From: a bacterium
GTDB lineage: Bacteria; CAIWAD01
Length of the DNA: 64,000 bases
Reading direction: 5' to 3'
NCBI GenBank assembly: GCA_030429345.1
Contig: JAUIFJ010000002.1
Location: forward strand, 123,074 to 187,073
In this document: positions 22,931 through 64,000 of the stretch, piece by piece
How the letters are laid out: every line of letters starts with the position of its first letter
Numbering within the stretch: position 1 is the first letter of the stretch
Position numbers and translations under genes: made by a program
The notes under the pieces: model-generated
What the model saw: the letters and a program-made list of their open reading frames with translations, nothing else
Databases searched by the model: none
What the model was told of the DNA's origin: nothing

Positions 22931-23309
22931 CTCCGCACGATGATCGTGCGGTTCTATGCAACGACCGCGATGCGGTCGCCGGCCGGCCCACCTTTCACCC
23001 TTCGCGGGGAATGCACTAGTTCGACCTTCATGTTTCTCGGCGGGGAAACCCGACACGACCCCATAGGGGTCGCTGCATATAGCCGCAGATGAAATCTGCG
23101 GGCATCCAATAATCCCCGTATACTCCGCACGATGATCGTGCGGTTCTATGCAACGACCGCGATGCGGTCGCCGGCCGGCCCACCCTTCATCCTTCGCGGG
23201 GAATGCACTGGTTCGACCATCAGGTTTCTCGGCGGGGAAACCCGACACGACCCCATAGGGGTCGCTGCCCATAGCCGCAGATGAAATCTGCGGGCATCCA
23301 ATAATCCCC
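22931..23309. repeat. Two tandem 192-bp units rich in perfect hairpins
   Basis: Unit 1 is 22931-23122 and unit 2 is 23123-23309, differing at about eight positions. Each carries two twin-hairpin modules facing each other. Rightward module in unit 1: hairpin 22933-22951 (stem CCGCACGA), a spacer with TATGCAA, then hairpin CGACCGCGATGCGGTCG (22962-22978). Leftward module: hairpin 23056-23072 (CGACCCC, loop ATA) and hairpin CCGCAGATGAAATCTGCGG (23083-23101). The same module recurs at 52694-52739, 63554-63598 and 63778-63822. No reading frame here looks coding. It is probably a dispersed palindromic repeat of the BIME/REP kind. The 300 bp after it hold no feature I can name. Confidence 0.88.
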
Positions 23310-23624
23310 CCGGGAACCTGCGGCTGTCTGTCGAAGTTTACGCTCCCCTGAATCCCGGCGCAGGTCGTAAAGGATTGCAGAATCCTTCGCCCGCCTTGCA
23401 GCGGCATGCACAGGGTTCCAGGTCCAGTGCAGGAAATCTTTTCGGACGGTCCTTGCCCCTTGATTCAGTGGGTCCCTTCTGCCGATACTTCCCTGCGAGC
23501 GGCTCTGCTGGCCCCGCCGGGTTCCCGTCCCGCGCCGGTTTTCCGCTTCCTCTCCCTGTTCGTGTCCTGGTCTCCGACCCGCCGGAGACGGAACTCTCCC
23601 TGAATTGAGTCTCATGGTCCGAAT

Positions 23625-23640
23625 TGGCAAAGTGTTTGCG
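23625..23640 (+). promoter_or_regulatory. Putative sigma-54 promoter of pilA
   Basis: TGGCAAAGTGTTTGCG matches the sigma-54 consensus TGGCAC-N5-TTGC, with the GG of the -24 element and the GC of the -12 element at the required spacing. Only the sixth base and the last base deviate. It lies 302 bp before the pilin start in a gene-free region. Major pilin genes are classically sigma-54 dependent through PilR. No pilSR genes are in the window, but a sigma-54 activator is encoded at 60140-61933. A weaker sigma-70-like pair, TTGCAG (23726-23731) and ATAAAT (23748-23753), lies closer to the gene. Confidence 0.55.
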
Positions 23641-23942
23641 TGCTTTGACTTGTTCGACTTCACGCTCTGCGTGATGGGAGTCAAGAGGAGTCCACCATCG
23701 CCCGCAGATGGTTCCCGGCACTACCTTGCAGTAGACAGGGCCGGGTGATAAATTCAGTGCTTGTCATCGGCAGTCACTGCAGCAGGAAGCACATCCCCTC
23801 TCCCCCCGTCCGCATCCAGTGGACAGCCTTGCCGCCGGCATCCCGCATACAGCCGGTTCAAGGGTGTGACTGATCGTGAAGCGATCCGAATCAACCAGAG
23901 ACATAAGTGCAAGCACGGACCAATTCTTAAGGGAGATCCCAA

Positions 23943-24356
23943 ATGAAGACCTTCAAGCGCGATGATCGCGGCTTTACCCTGGTGGAAGTCCTGATCGTGG
24001 TGATCCTGGTGGCCATTCTGGCCGCTATCGCTGTGCCCAAGTACATGCAGATGGTCAAGGGCGCCCGCGCCTCGGATGCCAAGGTTCAGATCAACGCCAT
24101 CATGAACGCGGCCGAGATCTACGAGCAGGAAACCGGCACCTGGCCGAGCGACCTGCAGATCCTGAAGGAGCAGGGCTACGTCGAGCTGCAGGAAAGCACC
24201 GAGCGTGCCTGGACCTTCACCCTCATCGGCGAGGACCAGATCCAGGCCACCTCGACTGCGGAAATGAAGGGCGGCCCCGGCAACGTGGTGACCTACAACA
24301 TCCAGAACGGCACCTGGTCCGGCTACGGCTTCCCCAAGTCCGAGAGCGGCGAGTAA
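23943..24356 (+). CDS. pilA: Type IV major pilin / type II G-type pseudopilin
   Basis: A 137-residue prepilin. A short positively charged leader ends at Gly10, followed by FTLVEVLIVVILVAILAAIAVP. Phe11 becomes residue +1 and Glu15 is the conserved Glu5. The small C-terminal domain resembles short GspG-like pilins and ends GYGFPKSESGE. The likely ribosome site is GGGAG at about 8 bp. It leads the pilus cluster. A GC hairpin (24377-24401) follows the stop, so pilin message may be made in excess over pilT and the downstream genes. Confidence 0.9.
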   Translation: MKTFKRDDRGFTLVEVLIVVILVAILAAIAVPKYMQMVKGARASDAKVQINAIMNAAEIYEQETGTWPSDLQILKEQGYVELQESTERAWTFTLIGEDQIQATSTAEMKGGPGNVVTYNIQNGTWSGYGFPKSESGE

Positions 24357-24376
24357 GAATGATTGTGATGCAGAGT

Positions 24377-24401
24377 TTCCGGCCCCCAAGCGGGGCCGGA
24401 A
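24377..24401 (+). terminator. Strong hairpin after pilA, possible attenuator
   Basis: The arms TTCCGGCCCC (24377-24386) and GGGGCCGGAA (24392-24401) pair over 10 bp around a 5-base loop. No T-tract follows, so it is not a clear intrinsic terminator. It may stabilise the 3' end of the pilin transcript or attenuate readthrough into pilT. Confidence 0.5.
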
Positions 24402-24446
24402 TCACTGCCTGCCCCTGCCCGGGGCTTGCCTGATTTGGAGAAGCGG

Positions 24447-25511
24447 ATGAATCTCAACGAACTGCTCACCTTCGGCGTCCAGCAGGGCGCTTCCGACCTT
24501 CACCTGGCGGTTGGGACAGTGCCCATGGTCCGCATCCATGGCCACATGAAGAAACTTTCCCTGCCGGCGATGACCCAGGAAAGCATGGACGGCTACGTTC
24601 AGGAAATCATGAACGATCGTCAGAAGGAAGTCTTCCACGAGAAGTTCGAGATCGACTTTTCCTACAAGCTCGAGGGGCTGGCCCGCTTTCGTGTCAACTT
24701 CTTCGAGCAGGTGCTGGGAACCAGCGCGGTCTTCCGCACCATTCCCGACCAGATCCGCACCTTCGAGGAACTGGGTCTGCCGGCCAAGGTGCTGTCGGAC
24801 CTGGCCCTCAAGGACCGCGGGATCGTGCTGCTGACCGGCCCGACCGGCAGCGGCAAGTCCACCACCCTCGCGACCATGGTGGACATCGTCAACGAGACCT
24901 TCGAAAAGCACATCATCACCGTCGAGGACCCCATCGAGTTCTTCCACCAGTCGAAGAACTGCATGGTCAACCAGCGCGAGCTGGGGGCCAACACGCACAG
25001 TTTCGCCAACGCGCTGCGCAGCGCGCTGCGTGAAGACCCCGATGTGATCCTGGTGGGTGAGATGCGCGACCTGGAAACGGTCCAGCTGGCCCTGACGGCC
25101 GCCGAGACCGGTCACCTGGTGCTGGCCACTCTCCATACGCCGAGCGCCACCAAGACCGTGGACCGTATCATCGACATCTTCCCTTCCGCCCAGAAACAGC
25201 AGGTCCGCAGCATGCTCGCGGAAAGCCTGGAGGCCGTCGTGGCCCAGCGCTTGCTGCCCAACAAGGACGGCAAGGGGCGCACGGCGGTGACGGAAGTCAT
25301 GATCGCCAACACGGCGGTTCGCAACCTGATCCGCGAGGACAAGATTTTCCAGATCCCCAACATCATTCAGGGCGGCAGCAAGCAGGGCATGCACAGCCTG
25401 GACAGCGACCTTCTGCGCGTGGTGCGCGAAGGCCGTGTGGACCGGCAGGTGGCGCTGCAGATTGCTGACAACCCGCGCGTCCTGGAAATGGAGATGGGGG
25501 ATCTGTACTGA
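24447..25511 (+). CDS. pilT: Pilus retraction ATPase PilT
   Basis: A 354-residue secretion ATPase starting MNLNELLTFGVQQGASDLHL, the typical PilT opening. Walker A is GPTGSGKSTTLATMV (about residue 130). The His-box and Walker B follow as DPDVILVGEMRDLETV, and the C-terminus has the PilT AIRNLIRE-type segment (TAVRNLIREDKIFQ). The ATG at 24447 has GGAG at about 8 bp; an earlier in-frame GTG/TTG region is less likely. PilT depolymerises the pilus at the inner membrane, powering twitching or DNA uptake. Its place directly after pilA, away from pilB, is not the common order. Confidence 0.93.
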   Translation: MNLNELLTFGVQQGASDLHLAVGTVPMVRIHGHMKKLSLPAMTQESMDGYVQEIMNDRQKEVFHEKFEIDFSYKLEGLARFRVNFFEQVLGTSAVFRTIPDQIRTFEELGLPAKVLSDLALKDRGIVLLTGPTGSGKSTTLATMVDIVNETFEKHIITVEDPIEFFHQSKNCMVNQRELGANTHSFANALRSALREDPDVILVGEMRDLETVQLALTAAETGHLVLATLHTPSATKTVDRIIDIFPSAQKQQVRSMLAESLEAVVAQRLLPNKDGKGRTAVTEVMIANTAVRNLIREDKIFQIPNIIQGGSKQGMHSLDSDLLRVVREGRVDRQVALQIADNPRVLEMEMGDLY

Positions 25512-25587
25512 TCCAGATAGAAGACCTCCCGCCGGTGCGGGAATCCTGTGGAGCCAGGGAGAGCGGCTTCGGACAAGGAGAACGGTC

Positions 25588-26070
25588 ATGAAGACAGGAA
25601 CACAGCAGCGGGAAACACGGCAGGGAGAAGGCGCCATGCGCCGCTTCCTGCGCGAAGACCGCGGCGCGACCATGCTGCCTTCCCTGGTGGTGGGATTCAT
25701 GGTGGTCGTGATCGCCTCGACGGCGATCTTCAAGGGCATTTTCCAGGCCCACGACTCCAACATGAGAATCTACCGCAAGGTGAAGGCCCTGGAAGCGCTG
25801 CAGAACGAAATGGAATACTGGAAGGCCGAGGTCTCGCTGCGCGGCGCCAGCCACCAGCGTCCCTACGGCCGTTACCAGGTCGTATTGGAAAGCGACAGCC
25901 GGCGCAGCAACGACGCCGTGCTGGCCTCCTTTGAACCGGCCGCGCAGATCCGGCCCCTGGGAACGACAGGACAGGTCCAGGCCTTCGAGATCACGGTCTC
26001 GATCACCTGGCCCGAAGGCGACAAGCTCTGGCGCGAGACCATGACAACCGCGGTCAACCCGCTCTACTAG
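25588..26070 (+). CDS. Prepilin-like minor pilin lacking Glu5
   Basis: A 160-residue protein with a long polar leader and a prepilin-like site at Gly26-Ala27: REDRG then ATMLPSLVVGFMVVVIAST. The mature +5 residue is Pro, not Glu, so it may enter the pilus in an unusual way or act at the tip, where the first subunit (GspK-like) also lacks Glu5. A short globular domain follows. AAGGAG lies 6 bp before the ATG. It is followed after 12 bp by another prepilin. The exact Pil/Fim name cannot be assigned. Confidence 0.72.
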   Translation: MKTGTQQRETRQGEGAMRRFLREDRGATMLPSLVVGFMVVVIASTAIFKGIFQAHDSNMRIYRKVKALEALQNEMEYWKAEVSLRGASHQRPYGRYQVVLESDSRRSNDAVLASFEPAAQIRPLGTTGQVQAFEITVSITWPEGDKLWRETMTTAVNPLY

Positions 26071-26082
26071 AAGGAGGACGTG

Positions 26083-26751
26083 ATGCAGCAACGCAATCGC
26101 CGCGGCCTCCGCGATGAGCGGGGAGCCACGATCGTCGAACTGATGGCCGCCGTGGTCATCATGGGAGTCGTTTCGATCGGCATTTTCCAGGCGGCCCTTG
26201 CCATTGGCATGCAGCTGCGTCGGGACAAGCTGGTCAACGACATGATGAATTTCGGCCAGCTGGTGATGAAGGAAAGCACGGCTTCCATCGCCGGCGCCTA
26301 CGAGGTGCTGGCCGGCACCAATTCCGGCGGACGCTCCAGCGAGCGTCTCGAGTTCCGCCTGCTCGGCGCCCGCAACATGGGCGAGGACACCCAATCCCGT
26401 TACCGTGTCTTAAGCGAGCGCGAACTCAGCATTACCCAGGGCAACCAGCGCCAGGAGTTCACCCGCCGCTGGCCGCCCCTGGAAACCGATCGCGAACGTT
26501 TTTCGAACTCTCCCTCCGAGATGACCATCGAGGAATTCAGCCTCAGCCGCTACAACGATCGCGGCACGGTCAGCGCCGCCGTCCAGAACAACCTCTACGA
26601 GGTGAAGCTGGTCCTCAAAGTCGTCGACGAGCTCGGCGACGAGGAGTGGTCGCTGCAGCGCGAATTCAAGCGGGTGGTCTACGTACCCAACAAGGAAATC
26701 GAGTTCCGCGCCCTGCAGCAGGACATCAGCCAGAGCGGGACGGGACTGTGA
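26083..26751 (+). CDS. Minor prepilin (PilW/GspJ-like)
   Basis: A 222-residue prepilin. The leader ends at Gly14 and the hydrophobic helix ATIVELMAAVVIMGVVSIG has Glu at +5. The globular part is about 190 residues, in the size range of PilW or GspJ-type minor pilins. A perfect AAGGAGG (26071-26077) sits 5 bp before the ATG at 26083; the GTG at 26080 is too close to it. The stop overlaps the first possible ATG of the next gene. Confidence 0.78.
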   Translation: MQQRNRRGLRDERGATIVELMAAVVIMGVVSIGIFQAALAIGMQLRRDKLVNDMMNFGQLVMKESTASIAGAYEVLAGTNSGGRSSERLEFRLLGARNMGEDTQSRYRVLSERELSITQGNQRQEFTRRWPPLETDRERFSNSPSEMTIEEFSLSRYNDRGTVSAAVQNNLYEVKLVLKVVDELGDEEWSLQREFKRVVYVPNKEIEFRALQQDISQSGTGL

Positions 26752-26771
26752 TGCCGGGGAAGGAGAGACCC

Positions 26772-28610
26772 ATGCAGAAAATTGTCACACACGACGACGG
26801 CGACCGGGGCGCGTTCCTGGTTTCCGCCATTATCATGACCACGGCCCTGGTGGCGATCAGTTTCGCCTACTTCATGCAGAGCCGCAGTTTCCACGACCAG
26901 TACATGCGCCTGCGCGCCGAGGCGCACGCCAAGTATGCCAGCGAGTACGTGGTCGCGCGCTACGGCGTGCCGACTTTCGTCCAGCGCAGCGAGGCCTCGC
27001 TGGAGACCAGTCCGGAAGGCTCGATGATCGAGCCGAACTACAACCGCGAATTCATCGAGGGCCAGCACCAGGCGGAGGACAAGGGGAAGCGCTACATCTA
27101 CTCCTATTCCGACCTGAACTGGGAGCCGCAGTACGATGTCCTGGTGGGCAAGGCGCATTATTTCGTCAATGCCGTCGGCACGGTGGGCTGGAACGACAGC
27201 CGCGGAGAACACGAGGTCAGCCACCGCAGCGCGGTCGGCGTCAGTTTCGGCGACTTCAGCAAGTTCCTCTATTTCTCGAACCGCGAGCTGAGTCCGGAAA
27301 ACAACCCGGTGCGTTTCTGGGGACCGGACCAGATCTACGGCCGCATCCACATCAACGGCCAGGCCCAGGTGACTCCGGGCAATTATCCGACCTTCTTCGG
27401 CCTGTTCACCCAGACCGCGGAGTCCGTGATCAACCTGCCGGAAGCCTTCTATCCGCAGGTCTTCCAGGGCGGCTACCAGTTCCCCTTCCCGGAATTCCAG
27501 TGGCCGCCGACGGACGCCATCGACCAGATCAAGCAGGCGCAGACCGCGTCACACACCTACACGGACAGCGTCTACCTGTCGTCCTACGACCAGAGCGCCC
27601 CGGTGACGACCAACATCACCTTCCTTGACCGGCGCTACCGCGTGAGCCAGTACGTACCCCCGCACTACAAGGCCCGCTACCTGGACAACATCACCAACCT
27701 GCAGGAACGCGCCGACTCGACCTTCCTGGCCGACACCCTCTGGGTGCCGCTGCCCGGCGGGGCCCTGGAGTCGACTCGCTCTCTTCCCACGGCGCCCGGC
27801 CGCCAGCTGATCTGGGTCAAGGGCGTGGCCCGCGTCTCCGGACGCGTGCGCGGACAGATCACCCTGCTCAGCAGTGATACCATGTTCGTGATGGACAACA
27901 TCTACACGGCCGACACCAATGTCTCCTCCTTCGGCGACGAGGAGGAGTTCGGCATGGTTCCGGTGGGCTCGACCAACCGCATCGGCCTGGCCAGCGAAGG
28001 CAGCGTCTTCGTGGCCGCCACGCCGATGAACGGCGCCTACAACGGCGGCAACTGCGGCTTCACCAACACCTCGAACATCAGCGGCGGCGCCCAGCAGAAC
28101 TCGGACGTGGTGATCACGGCGGCGATCATGGCCGCGCACTGCAGCTTCGGCGCCGAGTTCTGGAAGACCTCCGTGGCCGACAACTGGGTGCAGGGCGCGA
28201 CCTCGCAGAACCTGCAGCAGCCCGAAGAGTGTGACACGCCCCTGGACCTGAACCAGAACAACCGCTGGAACTATTCCATGAACCGCGCGCGCACGGCCGG
28301 CGGACCGCCGCCGCCCTTCCGCTGCAACACGGGCACCAACGACAACCGCGGCAAGATCTGGGTCTGCGGCAGCGTGGTCCAGGCGGTGCGCGGATTCGTG
28401 AGACGCAGCCCCATCGGCCCCTGGGGCCAGGCGATCATCGGCTACGACGACAAGATCTATCGCTACGACACCAACTTCTTCGCGGCCGGTCCGCCGGTCT
28501 GGGTCAAGGCCCGCTTCAGCGGCGGCGGTTCGGACCTGACCACGGCGATGGTGGTCCCGGACTACGACCGCTGGCTGGATCTGCGCGAAAAGAACAACCT
28601 GGTCAACTAA
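26772..28610 (+). CDS. Large prepilin-like protein, possible pilus tip component
   Basis: 612 residues, unusually large for a pilin-class protein. After a short leader, Gly13-Ala14 begins AFLVSAIIMTTALVAISFAYF, a prepilin-like helix with Ser at +5 instead of Glu. The body contains Tyr/Asn/Gly-rich beta segments, WGPDQIYGRIHINGQAQV (a segment recalling DUF4900-type pilus proteins) and several Cys (GGNCGFTN, AAHCSF, PEECDTP). GGAG 7 bp before ATG 26772 favours this start over ATG 26751. It may combine PilX/GspK-like initiation with a displayed domain. The function is inferred from position only. Confidence 0.65.
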   Translation: MQKIVTHDDGDRGAFLVSAIIMTTALVAISFAYFMQSRSFHDQYMRLRAEAHAKYASEYVVARYGVPTFVQRSEASLETSPEGSMIEPNYNREFIEGQHQAEDKGKRYIYSYSDLNWEPQYDVLVGKAHYFVNAVGTVGWNDSRGEHEVSHRSAVGVSFGDFSKFLYFSNRELSPENNPVRFWGPDQIYGRIHINGQAQVTPGNYPTFFGLFTQTAESVINLPEAFYPQVFQGGYQFPFPEFQWPPTDAIDQIKQAQTASHTYTDSVYLSSYDQSAPVTTNITFLDRRYRVSQYVPPHYKARYLDNITNLQERADSTFLADTLWVPLPGGALESTRSLPTAPGRQLIWVKGVARVSGRVRGQITLLSSDTMFVMDNIYTADTNVSSFGDEEEFGMVPVGSTNRIGLASEGSVFVAATPMNGAYNGGNCGFTNTSNISGGAQQNSDVVITAAIMAAHCSFGAEFWKTSVADNWVQGATSQNLQQPEECDTPLDLNQNNRWNYSMNRARTAGGPPPPFRCNTGTNDNRGKIWVCGSVVQAVRGFVRRSPIGPWGQAIIGYDDKIYRYDTNFFAAGPPVWVKARFSGGGSDLTTAMVVPDYDRWLDLREKNNLVN

Positions 28611-28628
28611 ACGCACTTTAATACAGGA

Positions 28629-29696
28629 ATGCACATGTTCTTTGGAGGACCCTCCAATCAGACCCTGGGCCTGGACATTGGCACGCACAGTGTCAAGGCC
28701 GTGCTGATGGAGAATCACCGCAATTCCCACCGGGTCCTGAAGGCGGGAGTGCAGCCCATCCATTTCGAGGGCGAATACGATCCGGCGCAGTTCCGGAAAG
28801 CCGAGTCGATCATGGCCGTCAAGTCGTTGATGAGTGATCTGAAGATCTCTCCGGCCAAGGTCAAGCATCTGGTCAGCTCCATCGGTGGCCAGGCCACCAG
28901 CATGAAGGAGATCACCTCGATCCAGATGAGCGAGGAAGAGCTGGCGACGAGCCTGATCTTCGAGGCGCGCAAGCACCTGCCGCTCGACGACTCGGATACC
29001 GTGATCGACCACCAGGTGCTGGGCGAGGACCCCGAGGACCCGCAGAAGATCCGCATCCTGCTCGTGGCCACCACGCGCAAGATGTACTCCTTCCACGAGG
29101 ACGTTCTCAAGGAATCGGGCTTCAAGCCGGGCGTGGTCGACATCGACCCGCTGGCCGTGCTCAACTCCTTCAATTTCCTTCAGGATCTGCCGGACAAGGG
29201 ACAGCTGCTCTTCCTGAACATGGGCACGCGTCACACGAACTTCATCGTCACCGGACGCAAGTGCAAGCTCTTCAATCGTGACATCCCCATCGGCGGGCAC
29301 CACTTCACGGCGGGCCTGGCCAAAATGAAGGAGATGGACTATCACGAGGCCGAACAGCTCAAGCAGCGCGAGGGTGTCGAGGCCTTCAATGCCGGCGGCG
29401 GCAACGGCGGCCTGTCATTGGCCCTGCAGTCGCGCTCGGTGCTCGAGGACTTCATGGACGAAGTCCGGCGCACTCTGCGCTATTACGTCAAGGAAAGCGG
29501 CCAGAGCGACTTCTCGAAGATCTACCTGACGGGCGGCGGAGCCGCCTTCACCGGACTGCCCGAAATGCTGGCCGAGAAATTCAGCATGGAATGCGCGGTC
29601 TGGAATCCGAGTACGGACATCGAGAGCCGCACGGACCTTGGCACCTGGGGCACGCAGATGACCCAGTGCCTGGGCCTGGCCTTGAGGAGGGAATAA
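28629..29696 (+). CDS. pilM: Type IV pilus inner-membrane platform protein PilM
   Basis: A 355-residue actin-like ATPase. It has the phosphate-1 motif LGLDIGTHSVKAVLM near the start. A second nucleotide-binding stretch lies in LLFLNMGTRHTNFIV, and the adenosine motif is YLTGGGAAFTGLPEML. PilM is cytoplasmic and binds the N-terminal tail of PilN. The following pilN starts immediately after the pilM stop (TAA then GTG), which fits coupled expression of the alignment complex. Confidence 0.9.
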   Translation: MHMFFGGPSNQTLGLDIGTHSVKAVLMENHRNSHRVLKAGVQPIHFEGEYDPAQFRKAESIMAVKSLMSDLKISPAKVKHLVSSIGGQATSMKEITSIQMSEEELATSLIFEARKHLPLDDSDTVIDHQVLGEDPEDPQKIRILLVATTRKMYSFHEDVLKESGFKPGVVDIDPLAVLNSFNFLQDLPDKGQLLFLNMGTRHTNFIVTGRKCKLFNRDIPIGGHHFTAGLAKMKEMDYHEAEQLKQREGVEAFNAGGGNGGLSLALQSRSVLEDFMDEVRRTLRYYVKESGQSDFSKIYLTGGGAAFTGLPEMLAEKFSMECAVWNPSTDIESRTDLGTWGTQMTQCLGLALRRE

Positions 29697-30308: not shown

Positions 30309-30323
30309 GGAGAGCGGAAAGCC

Positions 30324-30905: not shown

Positions 30906-30908
30906 TCC

Positions 30909-31451: not shown

Positions 31452-31498
31452 TCCCGCACAAGAAAAATCTCAATACACGCAACAGGAGTTCGTCTCTA

Positions 31499-32953: not shown

Positions 32954-32972
32954 AGGCAAGGGAGAGAAGGCC

Positions 32973-36002: not shown

Positions 36003-36014
36003 TCTCCCGATCAT

Positions 36015-40861: not shown

Positions 40862-41346
40862 ATCCCGACAGCATCTTCATGGAGATGGCCCTGCGCGAAG
40901 CGCGCAAGGCCCTCGAGAAGGGCGAGGTCCCTGTCGGGGCCGTTGTCACACACAACGGTTCCGTCGTCGGCCGCGGACACAACGGGGTCGAGAGCCTGGG
41001 TGACCCCACGGCGCACGCCGAGATGCTGGCGATCAGCGCCGCGGCGGACGCCCTGGGCAGCTGGCGCCTCGAGGACTGCGTGCTCTACGTGACCCTGGAG
41101 CCCTGCGCCATGTGCGCCGGGGCCAGCGTCCTGGCCCGTGTGCCGCGCATCGTCTTCGGCGCCTGGGACCCCAAGGCCGGCGCCTGCGGCAGCGTCAACC
41201 AGATCGCCCGCGACGATAGGCTGAATCACGTCTGCGAGATCGTCGGCGGCATCCGCGAAGAGGAATGCGGGGCCCTGCTGAAGGACTTCTTCCGCGACCT
41301 GCGCCAGAAGCAGAAAGCCTTCCGCGAGCAGAACCGGCAAAATTAA
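40858..41346 (+). CDS. tadA: tRNA-specific adenosine deaminase TadA
   Basis: About 162 residues. It has the zinc deaminase motifs HAE (His53 and Glu55, from the CTG start) and PCAMC (Cys83 and Cys86), plus EVPVGAVV near the N-terminus. It converts A34 to inosine in tRNA-Arg(ACG). The homologous N-terminus requires residues before the first ATG (40879). The best match is CTG at 40858 in a CTGA overlap with the upstream gene and AAGGAG 8 bp before it. A CTG start is rare, so the exact start is uncertain, but the gene call is firm. Confidence 0.9.
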   Translation: MNPDSIFMEMALREARKALEKGEVPVGAVVTHNGSVVGRGHNGVESLGDPTAHAEMLAISAAADALGSWRLEDCVLYVTLEPCAMCAGASVLARVPRIVFGAWDPKAGACGSVNQIARDDRLNHVCEIVGGIREEECGALLKDFFRDLRQKQKAFREQNRQN

Positions 41347-41489
41347 GAGCTCGCACGGAGAGCACGGAGAAGACGGAGGCCACGGAGCTTCAGAATTCTT
41401 GTCTACAAAAAAGAGCCGGTCCTGTGGACCGGCTCTCTTGTTCTTTCTCTGCGTTCTCTGTCTTCTCCGTGCTCTCCGTGCGAGCTCTT
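41345..41489. repeat. 30-bp perfect inverted repeats flanking a bidirectional terminator
   Basis: The left arm 41345-41374 (AAGAGCTCGCACGGAGAGCA and on) is the exact reverse complement of 41460-41489. Both arms are built from CACGGAGA-type words. The left arm begins inside the tadA stop region. The 85-bp interior holds the terminator at 41412-41436. The arms could form a very long cruciform or mRNA hairpin, or be terminal repeats of a tiny non-autonomous element. No target duplication is obvious. Confidence 0.88.
41411..41446. terminator. Bidirectional intrinsic terminator between tadA and the FmdB-like gene
   Basis: The stem AGAGCCGGTCC (41412-41422) pairs with 41426-41436 around a TGT loop. 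AAAAA precedes it and a T-rich run (CTTGTTCTTTCT) follows it, so it can end transcription from both convergent genes. Confidence 0.85.
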
Positions 41490-52475: not shown

Positions 52476-52491
52476 CCTTCGTAATCCACCA

Positions 52492-52693: not shown

Positions 52694-53030
52694 CGACCAC
52701 ATCGCGGTCGCTGCCTAAAGCCGCCGGTGAATCCGGCGGGAGACAATGCACGCCCAATGCCGTTTGCTCAAGGCCGGAACGCCTCGTGCTGCGAAGGGTG
52801 TCACACGGCGGAGGGGGTTGGTCCTGGGAAAGGGTGGGGGTCGTGGTGTGCGTGGGGGTGGGATTGTCTTTCGCGGGGGAAGGTGCGCCAAACTGGGAGA
52901 GGGGGTTGGCCGCGAAAGACATCCCTAGGGATTGGTGCGCCAGGCGCGCACACTATTATGAAGCCTCTCCGTACAAAAACCACCACTGGCACGCCGGGGG
53001 CGTGCCAGTGGTGGTTTTTGTACGGAGAGG
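52694..53030 (-). repeat. tRNA-Ser(CGA)-linked palindromic element
   Basis: Read on the minus strand from the tRNA 3' end, this holds a 67-bp palindrome (53030-52964), a GTGCGC-type hairpin, a CCTAGGGATGTCTTTCGCGG segment with a distant CCGCGAAAGACAATCCCAC partner, and a twin-hairpin module at 52739-52694. The same parts in the same order, at nearly the same distances, follow tRNA-Ser(GGA) at 63266-63598. The module ends about 330 bp from the tRNA in both copies. Its hairpin near 52694-52710 has one mismatch, so this copy looks more decayed. No gene is convincing between 52567 and 53022. Confidence 0.82.
52964..53030 (-). terminator. Perfect 32-bp-arm palindrome ending the tRNA-Ser(CGA) transcript
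   Basis: Arms 52964-52995 and 52999-53030 are exact complements around a 3-base loop. On the tRNA strand the stem core is ACTGGCACGCC and a T-run (GGTTTTTG) follows, as in an intrinsic terminator. The outer 8 bp of the first arm are the last 8 bases of the tRNA gene. Confidence 0.85.
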
Positions 53031-53110
53031 GTGGGATTCGAACCCACGGTAGGCCAAAGGCCTACAACAGATTTCGAGTCTGCCCCGTTCAGCCGCTCCG
53101 GCACCTCTCC
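53023..53110 (-). tRNA. tRNA-Ser(CGA)
   Basis: An 88-nt class II tRNA on the minus strand. The acceptor GGAGAGG pairs with CCTCTCC and the discriminator is G. The D-arm has GCCGGAGCGGCTGAAC. The anticodon stem CAGA/TCTG encloses CTCGAAA, giving anticodon CGA. There is a long variable arm, and the T-loop is GGTTCGAATCC. CCA is not encoded. It decodes UCG. Confidence 0.95.
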
Positions 53111-53127
53111 TGGAATGCGAAGCGATG

Positions 53128-53155: not shown

Positions 53156-53262
53156 GCGGCCCGGGAGAGGAGCAATGCGCGGGGGGGCGCTTTTCCGTTT
53201 GCCGGGGCTGATCGGCTTGCTAGATTTTCGCATCACACAGTTCGTCCAGCGGGAGAGCCTCC

Positions 53263-54396: not shown

Positions 54397-54616
54397 GCGA
54401 TTCCGGCTCGCAGGCCCCCCCGCCAGGCCGTTTCGGCCTTGCCGCTGAGGAGCGAAAACTTTCTTTTTCATTTGAAAATTGTTAGATGACCTAAAGAATA
54501 TTCTTTGTCTTTAGGGGTATTGGCAATTCTTCTGCCAGCGCGCCCCCGCGATTCCCATTTCAGCCGAAAATTGCCGATACTTGCTTCCCTGAACTGATCA
54601 GAACCAGAGGACCCTC
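54397..54616 (+). promoter_or_regulatory. Promoter region of the pyruvate dehydrogenase operon
   Basis: This 220-bp gap has a clear AT-rich island (about 54460-54520), including TTGAAA (54472-54477) and GAATAT 18 bp later. A TGGC...TGC arrangement at 54521-54536 has sigma-54-like spacing but an imperfect -12 box. AGAGGA lies 6-8 bp before the aceE ATG. Confidence 0.4.
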
Positions 54617-57283: not shown

Positions 57284-57292
57284 GAGATTCCC

Positions 57293-58630
57293 ATGGCATA
57301 CGAATTCAAACTCCCCGAACTGGGCGAGAACATCGAGGCCGGCGACGTCGTGCGCGTGCTGGTGAAGGTCGGCGATGCCGTGTCCGAAGGCGACACGCTC
57401 TTCGAGCTGGAGACCGACAAGGCCGTTGTCGAAGTGCCGGCCGACAAGGGCGGCACGGTGACGGAAGTCCGTGTCAAGGAAGGCGAGAAGGCCAGCGTGG
57501 GGCAGGTGCTGCTCGGCCTCGACAGCTCCGGGGCCGAGGCGGATGCCCCGGCGCAGGAAGAACCCTCGGCAGCACTGGAAAACGACTCTGTGGGCGAGAG
57601 CGGGGAAGACACCCGGGAAGCGGAACTTTCGGCTGCTCCTGCGGAAGAGCCACAGCCTGCCCCGAAGGCGGATGCCGCTCCGCCGGCCTCCCCCGGACCC
57701 TCAGGCGAGGCGGAGGAGGGCCAGCGCCTGGCCGCCCCCGCCGCGCCCTCGGTGCGCAAGGAAGCCCGGGAGCTGGGCGTGCGCATTGCCGATGTCGCCG
57801 GAAGCGGACCGCGGGGACGCATCACGATTTCCGATGTGCGCTCCCATGTCCGGAACCTCAATCGTGCCCATGCCCCCGGCAGCCAGGCTGCCCAGGGGGC
57901 GATGCCCGGCGGCCTGAGCCTGCCGGACCTCTCCCGCTTCGGCGGGATCCGGCGCGAGGCGATGAGCAATGTGAGACGGGCCACCGCGCGCCACATGGCG
58001 GCGACCTGGAACACGGTGCCCCAGGTCACGCAGTACGACAAGGCCGACGTCGGCGCTCTCGAGACGCTGCGCAAGCAGTTGGCGCCGGAAATGCCCAACG
58101 GGCGGCTGACCATGACGGCGATCCTGCTCAAGGTGGCGGCCGCGGCTCTGCGGCGCTTTCCCGAGTTCAACGCCAGTGTCGACATGCAGAGCGAGGAGAT
58201 CGTCTACAAGGACTACGTCCACGTGGGCGTCGCCGTAGACACTCCGCGCGGCCTGCTGGTACCCGTGATCCGCGACGTGGACCGCAAGGGCATTGCCGAA
58301 CTGGCGGAAAGCCTGGACGAACTGTCCGCAAGGGCCAGGGAACGGAAGACCGGTCCGGAGGAGCTGCAGGGGGGCTGCTTCACCATCAGCAACCTGGGGG
58401 GCATTGGCGGAACGGCCTTTTCGCCCATCGTCAATTTCCCGGAAGTGGCCATCCTGGGCGTGAGCCGCGCCGAGCGCGTGGCGGTTCCGGTCGGTGAGGG
58501 CTTCGAGGCACGGCTGCAGATGCCGCTCAGCCTGTCCTACGACCATCGACTGATCGACGGCGCGGCGGCTGCCCGCTTCCTGCGCTGGATCTGCCGCGCC
58601 CTGGAGCAGCCCCTGCTGCTCAGCCTGTAG
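57293..58630 (+). CDS. aceF: Dihydrolipoamide acetyltransferase (PDH E2)
   Basis: A 445-residue E2. It has one lipoyl domain with Lys43 in ETDKAVVEV, a long Ala/Pro/Glu linker (about 80-145), a peripheral subunit-binding domain (about 148-190: APSVRKEARELGVRIADVAG) and the catalytic domain with the active-site His418 in YDHRLIDGAAAARF. Proteobacterial partners of single-chain E1 often carry two or three lipoyl domains; here there is one. GGAG sits 6 bp before the ATG. Confidence 0.95.
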   Translation: MAYEFKLPELGENIEAGDVVRVLVKVGDAVSEGDTLFELETDKAVVEVPADKGGTVTEVRVKEGEKASVGQVLLGLDSSGAEADAPAQEEPSAALENDSVGESGEDTREAELSAAPAEEPQPAPKADAAPPASPGPSGEAEEGQRLAAPAAPSVRKEARELGVRIADVAGSGPRGRITISDVRSHVRNLNRAHAPGSQAAQGAMPGGLSLPDLSRFGGIRREAMSNVRRATARHMAATWNTVPQVTQYDKADVGALETLRKQLAPEMPNGRLTMTAILLKVAAAALRRFPEFNASVDMQSEEIVYKDYVHVGVAVDTPRGLLVPVIRDVDRKGIAELAESLDELSARARERKTGPEELQGGCFTISNLGGIGGTAFSPIVNFPEVAILGVSRAERVAVPVGEGFEARLQMPLSLSYDHRLIDGAAAARFLRWICRALEQPLLLSL

Positions 58631-58648
58631 ACGAGAAGGACCACCACC

Positions 58649-60058
58649 ATGAGCGATACCCGACACATTGCCGTCATCGGCGGCGGCCCGGGCGGCTACG
58701 CGGCCGCTTTCCATGCCGCCTCACGCGGATTCCGCACGACGCTGATCGACACTCGTACCACACCGGGCGGTGTCTGCCTGCATGTGGGCTGCATTCCCTC
58801 CAAAGCGCTGCTGCACGTGGCCAAACTGCTGGGCGAGACCGGCGAGGCGGGGCAGATGGGGCTGGACTTCGGCAAGGCCGCCATCGATCGCGAGAAGCTG
58901 GCCGGCTGGAAGGAATCCGTGGTCGAGCGCTTGACCGGGGGGCTGCTGCAGCAGTGCAAGCGACGCGGCGTCGAGTTCATCCAGGGACGCGCCCGCTACA
59001 AGAGCAGCACCCTGCTGGAGATCGAACTCGGCGATGGCGGTAGGCAGGAGCTTGCCGTGGATCACAGCATCCTGGCCAGCGGATCACGACCGTCGATGAT
59101 TCCCGGCGTCGAGGCCGGCGCGAAGATCTGGAATTCCACCGGCGGCCTGTCGCTGGAGACGATTCCGAAAAGCCTGCTGGTGGTCGGCGGCGGCTACATC
59201 GGCCTCGAGCTGGGCAGCGTATACGCCTCGCTCGGGAGCAAGGTCGACCTGGTGGAAATGACCGACGGGCTCCTGCCGGGCGCGGACCGGGACTTGGTGC
59301 GCGTGCTTTCAAAACGCGTTTCGAAGACCTTCAACGAACAGTACTTCCAGACGAAAGTGCTGAGTCTGAAGGAGCAGAAGAAGGGTGTCGCCGCCGTGCT
59401 CGAGTTGCCCGACGGCAAGGAACAGAAGAAGGTCTACGAGCGCGTACTGGTCTCGATCGGGCGTCGCCCCAATTCGGAAGACCTGGGACTTGAGCACACA
59501 GCGGTCGAGGTCAGCGACCGCGGCTTCGTCCAGGTCGACGACCAGCTGAAGACCGCCGATGCCGCCATCTCGGCCATTGGCGACGTGGTCGGGGACCCGA
59601 TGCTGGCGCACAAGGCCAGCCACGAGGCCCGGGTCGCGGTGGAAGTGATCGACGGCAAGAAGTCCCGCTTCGAACCGGCCTGCATTCCCGCCGTCGTTTT
59701 CACGGATCCAGAACTGGGCTGGGTCGGAATCACCGAGAACGAGGCAAAGGCCCAGGGCCGCGAGGTCAAAGTCTCACGCTTTCCCTGGGGCGCTTCGGGA
59801 CGAGCGCTGAGCCTGGAGCGCACCGACGGTGTCTGCAAGGTGATCGCCGACCCGGAAACGGATCGTGTGCTCGGCCTGGGAGTCGTCGGAGTCGGGGCCG
59901 GAGAACTGGTGGCGGAAGGTGCCCTGGCGATCGAGATGGGAGCCGTGGTCGAGGACCTGGCCCTGACGATTCATCCGCATCCGACCCTCTCGGAGACGAT
60001 CATGGAAGCCGCGGAAGTGTATTACGGACATAGCGCGCATTATTTTACGGGGAAGTAG
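58649..60058 (+). CDS. lpd: Dihydrolipoyl dehydrogenase (E3)
   Basis: A 469-residue flavoprotein disulfide reductase. It has FAD motif AVIGGGPGGYAAAFHA, redox-active cysteines Cys43 and Cys48 (CLHVGC), NAD motif VVGGGYIGLELGSVYASLG, and the C-terminal HPHPTLSE carrying the catalytic His-Glu. It reoxidises dihydrolipoyl groups of AceF. It is last in the aceE-aceF-lpd operon. The 81 bp after it hold no clear terminator. Confidence 0.96.
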   Translation: MSDTRHIAVIGGGPGGYAAAFHAASRGFRTTLIDTRTTPGGVCLHVGCIPSKALLHVAKLLGETGEAGQMGLDFGKAAIDREKLAGWKESVVERLTGGLLQQCKRRGVEFIQGRARYKSSTLLEIELGDGGRQELAVDHSILASGSRPSMIPGVEAGAKIWNSTGGLSLETIPKSLLVVGGGYIGLELGSVYASLGSKVDLVEMTDGLLPGADRDLVRVLSKRVSKTFNEQYFQTKVLSLKEQKKGVAAVLELPDGKEQKKVYERVLVSIGRRPNSEDLGLEHTAVEVSDRGFVQVDDQLKTADAAISAIGDVVGDPMLAHKASHEARVAVEVIDGKKSRFEPACIPAVVFTDPELGWVGITENEAKAQGREVKVSRFPWGASGRALSLERTDGVCKVIADPETDRVLGLGVVGVGAGELVAEGALAIEMGAVVEDLALTIHPHPTLSETIMEAAEVYYGHSAHYFTGK

Positions 60059-60139
60059 TTTTCTAGGAAGATTGAAGGTTGAAGAGGGTGAGGGCTGGAG
60101 TCGGGGATTGGCTAGACTGTTTTTCGGTGTGACAAACGG

Positions 60140-61933
60140 TCAGCTCGTGCGATTCTCGGGGTTTTCTTCGCTTTTCTGGATCCAGCGATAGACGCTGCGT
60201 TCGCTCATGTTGAGCCGGCGGGCCGTCTGCTTGACGTTGCCCCCGCATTCGGCGTGGATCTGTTTCACGATGCGGCGCGAGTAGGACTGTGTCAGGGCAT
60301 CGAAATCCAGCTGTTCCCGATCCAATTGAGGCGTCCAGGCGCTGCTCTCGTGATGAATGGGAATTCCATCCTCCAGGTCCAGGTGCTCAGGAAGGATCTC
60401 GTGTCCGGATTTGTGCCAGGCGCTGGTCAGGGTATTGAAGAGCTCGCGCACGTTCCCCGGAAAGGCGTGCTGCTCCAGGGCATGCAGGGCCGCTTCGCCG
60501 ATTGTCTTGTAGAGGCCGTTTTCACGGTTCAGCTGTGTGACGCGGAACTGCGCCAGGGTGCGCAGGTCCTGGTCCCTCTCGACGAGACGGGGCAGACGCA
60601 ACTTGACCTGGTTGAGTCTGTGATACAGTTCCTGGCGGAAGCCGTCCCGGTTGCGCAGGTCCTGGTTCGTTGCCGCAATGACGCGCACGTTGGACCGCAC
60701 CTCGTGGGCCGAACCCAGCGGATAGAAGATGCCGTTGTCCAGGAAACGGAAGAGATTGGCCTGTGTTTCCAGGGGCAGCTCGCCGATCTCGTCCAGGAAG
60801 AGCGTGCCGCCATCGGCGCGCTGCACGAAACCGATGGTGTCCGCCGCCGCCCCGGAGAAAGCGCCCTTCAGGTAGCCGAAAAGCTTGGCCTCGGCCAGGT
60901 TGCTCCCGAGGTGGTAGCAGTTGACGGCCACGAAGTTCTTGTCGGCCCGGTGACTCTGCTCGTGCAGGGCCCGTGCCACCAGCTCCTTGCCCGTTCCGGA
61001 TTCGCCCAGGATCAGGACATTGAGGTCCGTCGAGGCGTACTTGTCGATGGCGCGGCGCAGTTCGAAGATCGGCTCCGAATCCCCGACGATCCCGTGGCGC
61101 TGTGAGACAAGAATCGTCGGCGGATTGCCCAGCTGGCTGATCACGGAATTGCACAGGCGCGGAATCTCCTGCATGTGTTCCGGGCACTGGTCCCCGATGC
61201 GGGCCTGCAGGGCGCGGGCCTGTTCCAGCAGCTCCGTGTCGCGCCGCCCTTCTTTCCATGCGAGGCGCAGCTGGAAGTACTCGACCATCAGTTCCAGTTC
61301 ACGGCTGTTGCCCAGCTCGCGCAACCGTGTGATGCAACGCTGGGCAAGGGAGATGTCCTCCTCGAGGCCATGGTAGAAGCAGGCCGTCAGCAGGTATTCC
61401 GACTCGCATTCCTCCGGAGGGATGTCCCGCAGCACGGGCGCCGCCTTCGAGAGGTCGCGGCATTTCAGGCAGGCGAGTCCCAGCATCTGCCGCGTGGCCG
61501 CGCCATCCTGCGGATTTTCCAGCCCTTCTGCCAGCAGCTGCCAGCCTGAGCCGTCGTGATCCATGACCCGCACCAGTCCCTGCCAGGCCTTGGCGATCCC
61601 GGCGCGGTGGCCGGCATCCTGCCGGTACTGGTCGAGGCATTCGCCGCTGAGGCGCGTGTCGTCCAGCAGCACGGCAATCATGCCATAGTTCAGGAGCGCA
61701 TTGTTGCGATAGGCGGGATTGAGGTCCTCCTGGGCCAGCAGCTTGCGGTAGGCGCGCACGGCCTCCGCGTGGCGGCTGAGGTGATACAGGGCGTTGGCCT
61801 TGTAGAACAGCAGGGCCTGGCGGTGTTCCGGCGTACAGCGGTCCAGGTCGCTGTCGATTCCGGTGACACAGGCCTGGTAGTCCCGCCTGTCGTAGGCCTT
61901 CAGGGAGGCATATGTGGCCAGCAGGCCCGCCAC
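60140..61933 (-). CDS. Sigma-54-dependent activator with N-terminal TPR-like region
   Basis: A 597-residue protein. The first 270 residues are helical repeats of TPR type (for example ALLFYKANALYHLSRHAEAV, then YRKLLAQEDLNPAYRNNALL), replacing the usual receiver or PAS sensor. The AAA+ domain (about 290-510) has LGESGTGKELVARALHEQS, the sigma-54 contact loop GAFSGA (Ser for Thr in GAFTGA) and GGTLFLDEIGELPL. The Fis-type HTH is at the C-terminus (CGGNVKQTARRLNMSERSVY). The GTG start lies 3 bp after the stop of the secreted beta-helix gene, so the two are cotranscribed. Confidence 0.9.
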   Translation of the reverse strand: MAGLLATYASLKAYDRRDYQACVTGIDSDLDRCTPEHRQALLFYKANALYHLSRHAEAVRAYRKLLAQEDLNPAYRNNALLNYGMIAVLLDDTRLSGECLDQYRQDAGHRAGIAKAWQGLVRVMDHDGSGWQLLAEGLENPQDGAATRQMLGLACLKCRDLSKAAPVLRDIPPEECESEYLLTACFYHGLEEDISLAQRCITRLRELGNSRELELMVEYFQLRLAWKEGRRDTELLEQARALQARIGDQCPEHMQEIPRLCNSVISQLGNPPTILVSQRHGIVGDSEPIFELRRAIDKYASTDLNVLILGESGTGKELVARALHEQSHRADKNFVAVNCYHLGSNLAEAKLFGYLKGAFSGAAADTIGFVQRADGGTLFLDEIGELPLETQANLFRFLDNGIFYPLGSAHEVRSNVRVIAATNQDLRNRDGFRQELYHRLNQVKLRLPRLVERDQDLRTLAQFRVTQLNRENGLYKTIGEAALHALEQHAFPGNVRELFNTLTSAWHKSGHEILPEHLDLEDGIPIHHESSAWTPQLDREQLDFDALTQSYSRRIVKQIHAECGGNVKQTARRLNMSERSVYRWIQKSEENPENRTS

Positions 61934-61936
61934 GGA

Positions 61937-62989
61937 CTAGTCGTCCCACTTTCCGATTTCCGCCACCACCCTCACGTAGCGCATGCGCGTCTGCGCGATG
62001 GGAAGGGTGAAGTCGGGAGTGGTCGTGATCAGGTCCGGTTCCGCGGAGAACTGGTAGGCGTTTTCCGAGAAGAAGACCTTGTAGCGGCTTTCCCGGCAGG
62101 GAATGCCGTCGACGCTGGTGATCCCCAGCGGGTCGATCGTCAGCGGCACTTCGCCAATGACCACGTCCTGGGGAATCAGCAGGGGCGCGCCGGCCTCGTA
62201 GGGCGTGTGACGCGGCTCCTGCGGCATGGTCGTAGCCTCGAAGAGTCCCTGGACGCGGCTGGTGTTGCCCGTGCTCAGGTATACATCGTTCAGGTTGACG
62301 GCTTCGCTTTCGCTGTGGTTGATCAGGTCCCAGTAGCGACTGTCGACAATGTCCACGTTGATCAGCGCGGGCACCTGGTCTCCGCGGATCTCGAGGCCCA
62401 CGTCGTTGCCCTGGAAGAGGCAGTCGCGGACGACCAGCTGGCTTTCGCTGACGACATCCAGACCCAGGTCATTGGTGAGGAAGACGCAGTCCTCCAGTTC
62501 CGCTTCGCCCTCCAGCAGGCGCAGGGCGGTTCCCGAAGCGCCGATGCGCGTGTCACTCAACTGCAGGTCCGAACCGGCCGTCGTCGAGTGGATCACGATT
62601 CCCTGCGCGCTCAGCACGGAGGCCTCGCTTTGAAGAGTGCCGCCCTCCAGCAGGATCGCCTCGTCGATGGCTTCGACGCGACAGGAAGTCAGCGCCAGTT
62701 CCTGCCCTTCGGATACGGTGATCGGAAAGCCGTTCTCACGCCCCACATCCTCGATCAGATGCAGGTTGATCAGTTCCACGCGGCCGCTTTCGTTCCAGCT
62801 GATCCAGCTCCAGTCGATCCGTTCGCGGTTCATGTCCTTGTCCACGACAAGGGTATCGCCCGCGGGCAGTTCGAACTGTCCGGACTGGAACAGCTGGCTG
62901 GCGGTGAATTCCCACCGCCCGGCCCACAGGTTTCCTGCCCATGCGAGACTGATCAACAAGCCCGCGGAAACCATTGTTCGCAAGTACAT
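61937..62989 (-). CDS. Secreted right-handed beta-helix protein
   Basis: A 350-residue exported protein with a signal peptide (LLISLAWAGNLWA). The centre is a series of short rungs such as VEAIDEAILLEGGTLQSEAS, DCVFLTNDLGLDVVSESQL and DCLFQGNDVGLEIRGDQV, typical of a parallel beta-helix. The C-terminal 80 residues form another beta region. No catalytic residues could be picked out. It resembles in style the beta-helix lipoprotein at 6887-7969 but lacks the lipobox. It is paired with the TPR/sigma-54 activator. Confidence 0.7.
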   Translation of the reverse strand: MYLRTMVSAGLLISLAWAGNLWAGRWEFTASQLFQSGQFELPAGDTLVVDKDMNRERIDWSWISWNESGRVELINLHLIEDVGRENGFPITVSEGQELALTSCRVEAIDEAILLEGGTLQSEASVLSAQGIVIHSTTAGSDLQLSDTRIGASGTALRLLEGEAELEDCVFLTNDLGLDVVSESQLVVRDCLFQGNDVGLEIRGDQVPALINVDIVDSRYWDLINHSESEAVNLNDVYLSTGNTSRVQGLFEATTMPQEPRHTPYEAGAPLLIPQDVVIGEVPLTIDPLGITSVDGIPCRESRYKVFFSENAYQFSAEPDLITTTPDFTLPIAQTRMRYVRVVAEIGKWDD

Positions 62990-63139
62990 TGGGGTGCTCC
63001 TCCCTACACAAGGCCGTCCCAGGGGGGGATTGGGGCGGCTGCTGCCAAGTACCGCTATAATAAGGATGTGCTTGAGCGGAGACCAGTGAAAAATCAGTCA
63101 GGCAGGATGAGTCTTCTAAATGAACCCGGCGACCCTTCT

Positions 63140-63168
63140 TTGCATGCCAAGGCTCCAATTCCTACAAT
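63140..63168 (+). promoter_or_regulatory. Promoter of tRNA-Ser(GGA)
   Basis: TTGCAT (63140-63145) and TACAAT (63163-63168) are 17 bp apart, and the tRNA starts 20 bp after the -10 box. Another TATAAT (63056-63061) lies further upstream. Confidence 0.72.
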
Positions 63169-63188
63169 CCAAGCTCGGCGAAAAACCC

Positions 63189-63273
63189 GGAGAGATGACC
63201 GAGCGGCTGAAGGTGCACGCCTGGAACGCGTGTGTAGGGCAACCTACCGTGGGTTCGAATCCCACTCTCTCCG
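63189..63273 (+). tRNA. tRNA-Ser(GGA)
   Basis: An 85-nt class II tRNA. The acceptor GGAGAGA pairs with TCTCTCC and the discriminator is G. The D-arm contains GACCGAGCGGCTGAAG. The anticodon stem CACGC/GCGTG encloses CTGGAAC, giving anticodon GGA. There is a long variable arm and the T-loop is GGTTCGAATCC. CCA is not encoded. It decodes UCC and UCU. Confidence 0.95.
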
Positions 63274-63332
63274 TATGAAAAAGAGAACTGGCACGCCCCC
63301 GGCGTGCCAGTTCTCTTTTTCATACGGAGAGA
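63266..63332 (+). terminator. Perfect 32-bp-arm palindrome ending the tRNA-Ser(GGA) transcript
   Basis: Arms 63266-63297 and 63301-63332 are exact complements around CCC. The stem core ACTGGCACGCC is shared with the tRNA-Ser(CGA) palindrome, while the next bases differ (GAGA here, CCACC there) with matching changes in the other arm. A TTTTT run makes it an intrinsic terminator. The outer 8 bp repeat the tRNA 3' end in inverted form. Confidence 0.88.
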
Positions 63333-63598
63333 CTTCCTAATAAAGTGCGCGCCTAGCGCACAATTCCTTAGGGATGTCTTTTGCGGCCAACCACGTATCC
63401 CACCATGACGCACGATCCCCCGCAAAAGACAATCCCACCCCGGGCATACCGAGAGTGTACTGGTGGCACACGGAACCGCACCGCCCGGGCAACACGCGTT
63501 GTGTACCCAACGATCCGGGCGTTGGTTGAATAAATGGGTGTGCTCGCCTTTCGCGCCGGATTCACCGGCGGCTTTATGCAGCGACCGCGATGCGGTCG
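63266..63598 (+). repeat. tRNA-Ser(GGA)-linked palindromic element
   Basis: Second copy of the tRNA-linked element. It contains the palindrome above, hairpin GTGCGC/GCGCAC (63345-63361), TTAGGGATGTCTTTTGCGG with a distant CCGCAAAAGACAATCCCAC partner (63420-63438), and a twin-hairpin module: CGCCGG-ATTCA-CCGGCG (63554-63570), spacer with TTATGCAG, and CGACCGCGATGCGGTCG (63582-63598). Confidence 0.82.
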
Positions 63599-64000
63599 GG
63601 TCTTTTGCGGCACGCGCCCCTTCCCGCAGTGACGCACGATCCCCCGCAAAAGACAATCCCACCCCGGGCATACCGAGAGTGTACTGGTGGCACACGCTAC
63701 CGCGCCGCCCGGGCAACTCGCGTTGTGTGCCGAACGATCCGGGCGTTGGCGGAATGAATGGGCGTGCTCGCCTTTCGCGCCGGATTCACCGGCGGCTTTA
63801 TGCAGCGACCGCGATGCGGTCGGGTCTTTTGCGGCCAGCGCCCCTTCCCGCAGTGACGCACGATCCCCGCAAAAGACAATTCCGCCCTGGGCATACCGAG
63901 AGTGTACTGGTGGCACACGCTACCGCGCCGCCCGGGCAACTCGCGTTGTGTGCCGAACGATCCGGGCGTTGGCGGAATGAATGGGCGTGCTCGCCTTTCG
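63377..64000 (+). repeat. Tandem array of 224-bp units continuing past the window edge
   Basis: TCTTTTGCGG recurs at 63377, 63601 and 63825, exactly 224 bp apart, and CACGAT at 63411, 63635 and 63859. Units 1 and 2 are complete and unit 3 is cut by the window end. Each complete unit ends with the twin-hairpin module (63554-63598 and 63778-63822). Since 224 is not a multiple of three, the open frames across it shift from unit to unit, so it is not coding. Spacing and unit size exclude a CRISPR array. Confidence 0.92.

Follow-up and report, generated by a model that had tools for sequence, protein, structure and literature searches.

A REP-like twin-hairpin module beside subclass 1.2 TnpA_Y1 genes in a CAIWAD01 bacterium and in other phyla

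Repetitive extragenic palindromic (REP) sequences, their inverted pairs (REPINs), and REPtrons, in which a Y1 transposase gene is flanked by its own repeat family, are already well described. In E. coli, Stenotrophomonas, and Pseudomonas, their partner is RAYT or TnpA_REP, a class 2 Y1 HuH protein with the motif Y...NP (PMC3116915, PMC8266576, PMC6006769). In the systems examined by experiment, the hairpin that TnpA binds carries a guide tetranucleotide on its 5' side, and the enzyme cleaves single strands both 5' and 3' of this hairpin (PMC8266576). Here we describe a 46-base module of two hairpins, present seven times in a stretch of 64,000 nucleotides (the window) from contig C8 of a CAIWAD01 bacterium (assembly GCA_030429345.1, contig JAUIFJ010000002.1, positions 123,074 to 187,073). 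Like REPs and REPINs, it forms short dispersed palindromes and inverted pairs, it flanks a Y1 HuH gene, and in many relatives, as well as in a second repeat family of this genome (F34), the tetranucleotide GTAG stands 5' of the hairpin foot. Unlike them, it has a partner of TnpA_Y1 subclass 1.2 (Y..Q..HH), it adds a mini-hairpin (H1) at a fixed register of 17 nt from the main hairpin (H2), often with a third hairpin (H3), and the window family carries ATAG, AAAG, or AGAA in place of GT[AG]G. The module is very probably a non-autonomous REP-like mobile element, arranged in REPIN-like pairs, of a subclass 1.2 TnpA_Y1.

Other Y1 systems also offer close comparisons. The IS200/IS605 insertion sequences (IS), whose TnpA belongs to subclass 1.1 (IS608, ISDra2), have subterminal hairpins with guide tetranucleotides on single-stranded DNA, and they provide the closest solved structures; however, the five genes of the present genome have diverged (38-42% identity to the first) and are singletons, and the repeats far outnumber them. 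Terminal inverted repeats (TIRs) made up of two palindromes had been observed next to Y1 genes by 2013, mostly with other subclasses (Di Nocera et al. 2013, PMC3733652). These TIRtrons or TIRYTs, together with the GTAG-1 units of P. putida and P. fluorescens, which are fused to stem-loops, resemble the present case in that two-palindrome inverted repeats flank a Y1 gene and some are dispersed and dimeric. However, 20 of the 26 TIRYTs described belong to subclass 2.1 (PMC6006769). Subclass 1.2 itself is defined by the exact signature found here (DHVH, WQ, Y..Q..HH), a short conserved C-terminal extension, and low copy number; Table 1 of Quentin et al. 2018 (PMC6006769) gives it as "REP: no" and places it mostly in Cyanobacteria and Bacteroidetes, whereas the module-bearing loci described below lie mostly in Planctomycetota and Verrucomicrobiota. 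Among the open-access papers searched, including the text of the 2013 paper without its figures, none was found that connects subclass 1.2 with a repeat family or describes a fixed 17-nt register.

Covariation and dispersal of the family

An earlier note on this DNA had described seven copies of a module consisting of hairpin A, a spacer, and hairpin B. Inspection of the sequence finds all seven at the coordinates and on the strands claimed, and the order of the parts is borne out by a geometry scan (a 7-bp hairpin with a 3-nt loop, 10 nt, and a 7-bp hairpin with a 5-nt loop, at least 6 of 7 pairs in each), which recovers 7 of 7 copies; dinucleotide-shuffled windows yield a mean of 0.47 matches (30 shuffles). 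The functional strand, however, is the complement of the one first described, the earlier hairpin A being H2 and hairpin B being H1. Two details need correction. The spacer, said to be nearly constant, contains TATGCA in five of the seven copies, but reads TATGGGCAG in the copy at 23248 and TTTAGGCAG in that at 52694. Furthermore, the mismatch that had been thought unique to the 52694 copy is indeed there, but the copies at 63554 and 63778 also lose the outermost pair of stem A.

The covariation of the stems that the note had seen stands far above shuffles across 21 distinct genomic copies. Standard pairs make up 99.3% of pair cells (shuffled mean 84.3%), 37 pair cells have changed on both sides (12.0 in shuffles), and the covariation score is 0.359, a value reached by 0 of 500 shuffles, which score 0.088. 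When the partner arm is slid out of register, the covariation is lost. This strong covariation supports the note's suggestion of selection on a folded nucleic acid.

The copies also served to build a covariance model, as the note had proposed, and in the 4.2-Mb genome this model gives 44 matches, all with E <= 1.4e-5; further copies are thus present. They are spread over 13 contigs and occupy 21 places separated by more than 1.5 kb; they are short, palindromic, and dispersed in the manner of REP sequences. Twenty-eight of the 44 form 14 inverted pairs, always in the order H2'-H1'..H1-H2 with H1 inward and with gaps of 6-138 bp. As in a REPIN, two inverted repeats make up the unit, and the family is REPIN-like in its organization. 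A check for known RNA families gave, at Rfam gathering scores, two tRNAs in the window and nothing over the module copies. Likewise, the sequence pattern of the module produced, in 59 other genomes (three of the same family), isolated matches with 2 mismatches that did not exceed the reversed control. Among the genomes searched, the sequence family is restricted to this one.

The partner gene and its relatives

The genome contains ten matches to the Y1 transposase family (PF01797). One of these genes, outside the window on contig C9 (C9:115641-115985, minus strand), lies between two inverted pairs of the twin-hairpin repeat. This is the arrangement of a REPtron and, equally, that of a Y1 gene with flanking terminal inverted repeats, as in a TIRtron or TIRYT. 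Thus, the RAYT/TnpA_REP gene that the note had suggested looking for is there in part: a repeat-flanked Y1 transposase exists, but it is a subclass 1.2 TnpA_Y1 (Y..Q..HH) and not a classical class 2 RAYT (Y...NP). The gene encodes the motifs DHVH, WQ, and YIRNQEVHH and is therefore assigned, on this signature, to subclass 1.2. Together with the 44 copies, it supports the note's other suggestion, copying by a REP-type system, and it probably spreads the repeat of the seven-copy family. Three class-2-like genes (YIDLNP/YMDLNP; L035-L037) have no modules in their flanks, and a class 2 RAYT was rejected as the partner because the genome's own genes of this kind lack them. At the last of these loci, a 12-bp tandem array (positions 1977-2240) lies near the Y1 gene C59:13913-14245.

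Five genes of this genome have the subclass 1.2 motifs, Y..Q..HH with DHuH and WQ. The remaining four are 38-42% identical to the first, so that these are diverged singletons rather than the near-identical multi-copy genes of an IS200/IS605 element. All five are flanked by inverted-repeat families of their own, each of which is also dispersed. Among the four other families, F30, F32, and F34 have a clear twin hairpin, whereas that of F31 is less regular; pattern searches of the genome find F34 at 33 places, F32 at 13, F31 at 9, and F30 at 7, with 0 for reversed-pattern controls. GTAG precedes H2 in F34. In all five families, hairpin pairs are found in tandemly repeated units (loci L030, L031, L032, and L034, contigs C25 and C56) with periods of 76, 192, 224, 237, 308, 306, and about 444 bp, and it seems that these families commonly grow through tandem duplication of entire units.

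A structural model of the TnpA at locus L093 (pLDDT 90) best matches the ISDra2 and IS608 transposase structures, many of which are DNA complexes, and then the E. coli RAYT 4er8. The helices that follow the catalytic tyrosine in the model correspond to the conserved C-terminal extension; that this extension might contact H1 is a guess.

When the five proteins were used as queries against GTDB genomes, 158 relatives were obtained, the best 80 loci of which were kept without use of the flanking DNA in the choice. Y..Q..HH is found in 77 of the 80. Inverted repeats (E<1e-5, within 300 bp, on both sides) occur at 49 of 75 relatives, as opposed to 0 of 75 mismatched pairs and 0 of 136 displaced windows, and 37 of the 49 repeat arms hold two adjacent hairpins (29 of 980 shuffles). 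A strict module was then defined by an H1 stem of at least 5 bp, an H2 stem of at least 7 bp, and exactly 17 nt from the H1 loop edge to the H2 foot, all within 400 bp of the gene. This module is present at 46 of the 80 loci, on both sides in 29, and in 0 of 135 control windows; the published absence of REP association in subclass 1.2 does not hold for these loci. By phylum, it is found at 21 of 26 loci in Planctomycetota, 13 of 15 in Verrucomicrobiota, and 1 of 12 in Bacteroidota; its scarcity in Bacteroidota may be the reason for the "REP: no" of the survey. Among 81 modules, the tag before H2 is GTAG in 36, ATAG in 22, and AAAG in 6; H2 has 8 bp in 71 and starts with CC in 68; the H1 loop is GNA in 49; and in 70, H1 is distal and H2 gene-proximal. 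On a TnpA tree, the strict module is spread over many branches but clustered, requiring 19 changes, and therefore neither a single gain nor a single loss is claimed. A looser first scan (distance 16-18, alternative loops) had flagged several other Y1 loci, of which only L191 and L195 remain when one hairpin per dyad centre and a distance of exactly 17 are required.

The modules of the relatives can be dispersed as well. With patterns based on H2, two genomes reached via Verrucomicrobiota loci (G060 and G065) gave 10 and 13 places, and two reached via Planctomycetota loci (G069 and G074) gave 35 and 14. In all four genomes, stem changes in the dispersed copies preserve pairing, and reversed controls give 0. 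The remaining genomes searched had few or no matches, as expected where the H2 sequence differs.

In addition, 45 of 86 modules (32 loci) have the H3 mini-hairpin, whose loop edge lies 26-29 nt 3' of H2, over a background of about 0.4 per distance. Much of the excess at 24-28 nt in the distance histogram is H3 on the gene side of H2. The loop of H3 is GNA in 29 of the 45, and the 3' flanks of H3 and H1 are identical at 4.39 of 8 positions, compared with 3.06 for shuffled partners (maximum of 500 shuffles, 3.61). H3 was also looked for 3' of the window copies and was not seen; the first hairpin 3' of the 23056 and 23125 copies is the H2 of the neighboring copy. When closed by G-C stems, GNA loops give DNA mini-hairpins of extraordinary stability, GCGAAGC melting at 78 C (PMC4686876). 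In the relatives, GNA loops rather than their complement, TNC, dominate on the tag-bearing strand, which would fit folding of that strand as single-stranded DNA.

The copies in the window

The copies in the window (Table 1) are not seven independent insertions, since they lie in tandem arrays and, in the case of those at 52694 and 63554, in a duplicated segment linked to tRNA-Ser genes. The first four make up two inverted pairs, copies 1 and 2 and copies 3 and 4, each with a 77-bp gap.

Table 1. Module copies and tandem arrays, in window coordinates; strand is that of the order H1, spacer, tag, H2, and bits are covariance model scores
Feature	Position	Strand	Description
Module copy 1	22933..22978	-	H1 22962-22978, spacer and tag (AGAA) 22952-22961, H2 22933-22951; covariance model match 1-46, 62.7 bits (C8:146006-146051)
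Module copy 2	23056..23101	+	H1 23056-23072, spacer and tag (ATAG) 23073-23082, H2 23083-23101; 68.7 bits
Module copy 3	23125..23170	-	Tandem duplicate of copy 1; covariance model match
Module copy 4	23248..23293	+	Tandem duplicate of copy 2; covariance model match
Two-unit tandem array	22931..23309		192-bp period, with one inverted pair (REPIN-like) per unit; 96% matches in Tandem Repeats Finder
Module copy 5	52694..52739	+ (minus in the earlier A-B orientation)	Tag AAAG; one H1 mismatch; 67.8 bits
Module copy 6	63553..63598	-	Tag AAAG; outermost H2 pair lost; 66.7 bits
Module copy 7	63777..63822	-	Tandem duplicate of copy 6; covariance model match
Tandem array	63376..64000		224-bp period; contig C8 ends within the array, after 2.8 units; holds the copies at 63554 and 63778

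The end of contig C88 (L014) bears 186 bp of the unit of the 224-bp array, 100% identical, and the assembly is therefore probably broken within a longer array. The tRNA-Ser genes lie at 53023-53110 (cga, minus) and 63188-63274 (gga, plus). After both, a 199-nt segment (52855-53053 and 63243-63441; 84% alike, inverted) includes TGTCTTTYGCGG ... CCGCRAAAGACAATCCCACC, and at both sites a twin-hairpin copy follows about 310 bp beyond it; these copies have therefore probably spread through segmental duplication. Each site also has an inverted repeat of 32 bp, perfectly paired around a 3-nt loop (52964-53030 and 63266-63332), and its first arm extends over the final bases of the tRNA-Ser gene; its mid-stem differs between the copies, with full complementarity in each. 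Elsewhere, at 41345-41489, there is a 43-nt inverted repeat (88% complementary, 59-nt gap) with many CACGGAGA-type short repeats, apparently without relation to the twin hairpins.

Interpretation and competing explanations

Taken together, these results suggest a model in which the functional strand reads H1 mini-hairpin, spacer, tetranucleotide, and H2. Both hairpins would fold when the tag-bearing strand becomes single-stranded, for example as the lagging-strand template. TnpA would then bind H2, with the tetranucleotide as guide, as in the REP and IS200/IS605 systems; by analogy, H2 and its tag would fit the role of the guide hairpin that TnpA binds. H1 and H3 stand at stereotyped distances on either side of H2 and are therefore proposed to position or mark the cleavage region, H1 from its fixed place 17 nt on the 5' side and H3, in many relatives, in a matching role on the 3' side. 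Whether H1 is a working part of the substrate at all we regard as an even wager. Cutting and rejoining of the strand by TnpA would move or duplicate the unit, and tandem duplication of whole pairs would yield extra copies.

Several observations weigh against this reading. The window tags are ATAG, AAAG, or AGAA and never the GTAG of a canonical REP (GT[AG]G), and the H1 loops of the window are ATC or ATA rather than GNA; since GTA and GAA are also found elsewhere in the family, the GNA loop is a tendency and not a rule. The strict module is absent from nearly half of the subclass 1.2 loci, including 11 of 12 in Bacteroidota, while L191 and L195, Y1 loci with motifs other than Y..Q..HH, do show two neighboring hairpins, although without the tag arrangement. 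The relatives share ancestry, so that the loci are not independent and the counts indicate breadth rather than independent events. Finally, neither an insertion polymorphism nor an empty site was observed; the nearest relatives searched belong to another genus and lack the family.

The possibility that this is an ordinary canonical REP/RAYT system, with H1 just a functionless small stem-loop in the dimer spacer, gains from the REPIN-like layout, from GTAG before H2 in 36 of 81 modules and in F34, and from the small stem-loops that Di Nocera et al. 2013 report at one end of some REP-dimer spacers. Such a system would call for a cognate class 2 TnpA_REP (Y...NP), however, and the flanked gene has YIRNQEVHH, the enzymes as a group being of subclass 1.2; moreover, 46 loci in several phyla share the fixed 17-nt register between H1 and H2 (0 of 135 controls), and the single E. 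coli rayT REP recovered by the scan has no hairpin within 28 nt upstream. We thus consider this explanation unlikely. "REP-like" is the fitting name for the window family because both its tag and its enzyme class depart from the canonical definition.

Somewhat more doubtful still is the proposal that the module is the terminal repeat of an ordinary IS200/IS605-type IS or of a TIRtron, the dispersed copies being solo ends or deletion products resembling miniature inverted-repeat transposable elements. The inverted repeats do flank the gene as element ends would, the NCBIfam name of the proteins is transpos_IS200, subclass 1.2 is sister to subclass 1.1, and some TIRtrons of Di Nocera et al. have double palindromic TIRs. 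Yet the divergence of the five genes argues that they are not copies of one proliferating IS, the repeats are far more numerous than the genes, with 28 of 44 in inverted pairs, and the published account denies IS properties to subclass 1.2. A structured RNA, such as a regulatory or stability element in transcripts, with an incidental link to TnpA, would predict strong covariation in both stems equally well. It is nevertheless very improbable: the window has no Rfam match other than tRNA, copies lie on both strands, the fixed-geometry module recurs beside TnpA genes picked on protein similarity alone, each of the genome's own genes has its own repeat family, and GNA triloops on the tag-bearing strand are typical of stable DNA mini-hairpins. 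A folded RNA was rejected as the primary function on the Rfam result, the GNA loops, and the TnpA association; intrinsic terminators are not favored either, the window copies having no T-run after their hairpins.

With about equal chances for and against, subclass 1.2 TnpA in several phyla may act on a hitherto undescribed composite single-strand DNA substrate, a hairpin with a GTAG-type tag whose position is set by one or two flanking GNA-loop mini-hairpins at fixed distances (17 nt on the 5' side and about 27-28 nt from H2 to the H3 loop edge on the 3' side), and maintain REP-like populations in a subclass listed as REP-free. The module would provide a candidate DNA substrate for HuH enzymes that had been surveyed as repeat-free, making their biochemistry directly testable, and the fixed 17-nt spacing and the GNA mini-hairpins lead to the hypothesis that a second folded DNA structure sets or marks the place of the cut. 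GTAG, ATAG, and AAAG occur in otherwise similar modules, which are therefore well suited to studying the co-evolution of guide tetranucleotides with cleavage sites. The REP/REPIN concept would thereby be extended in Planctomycetota, Verrucomicrobiota, and other less-studied phyla.

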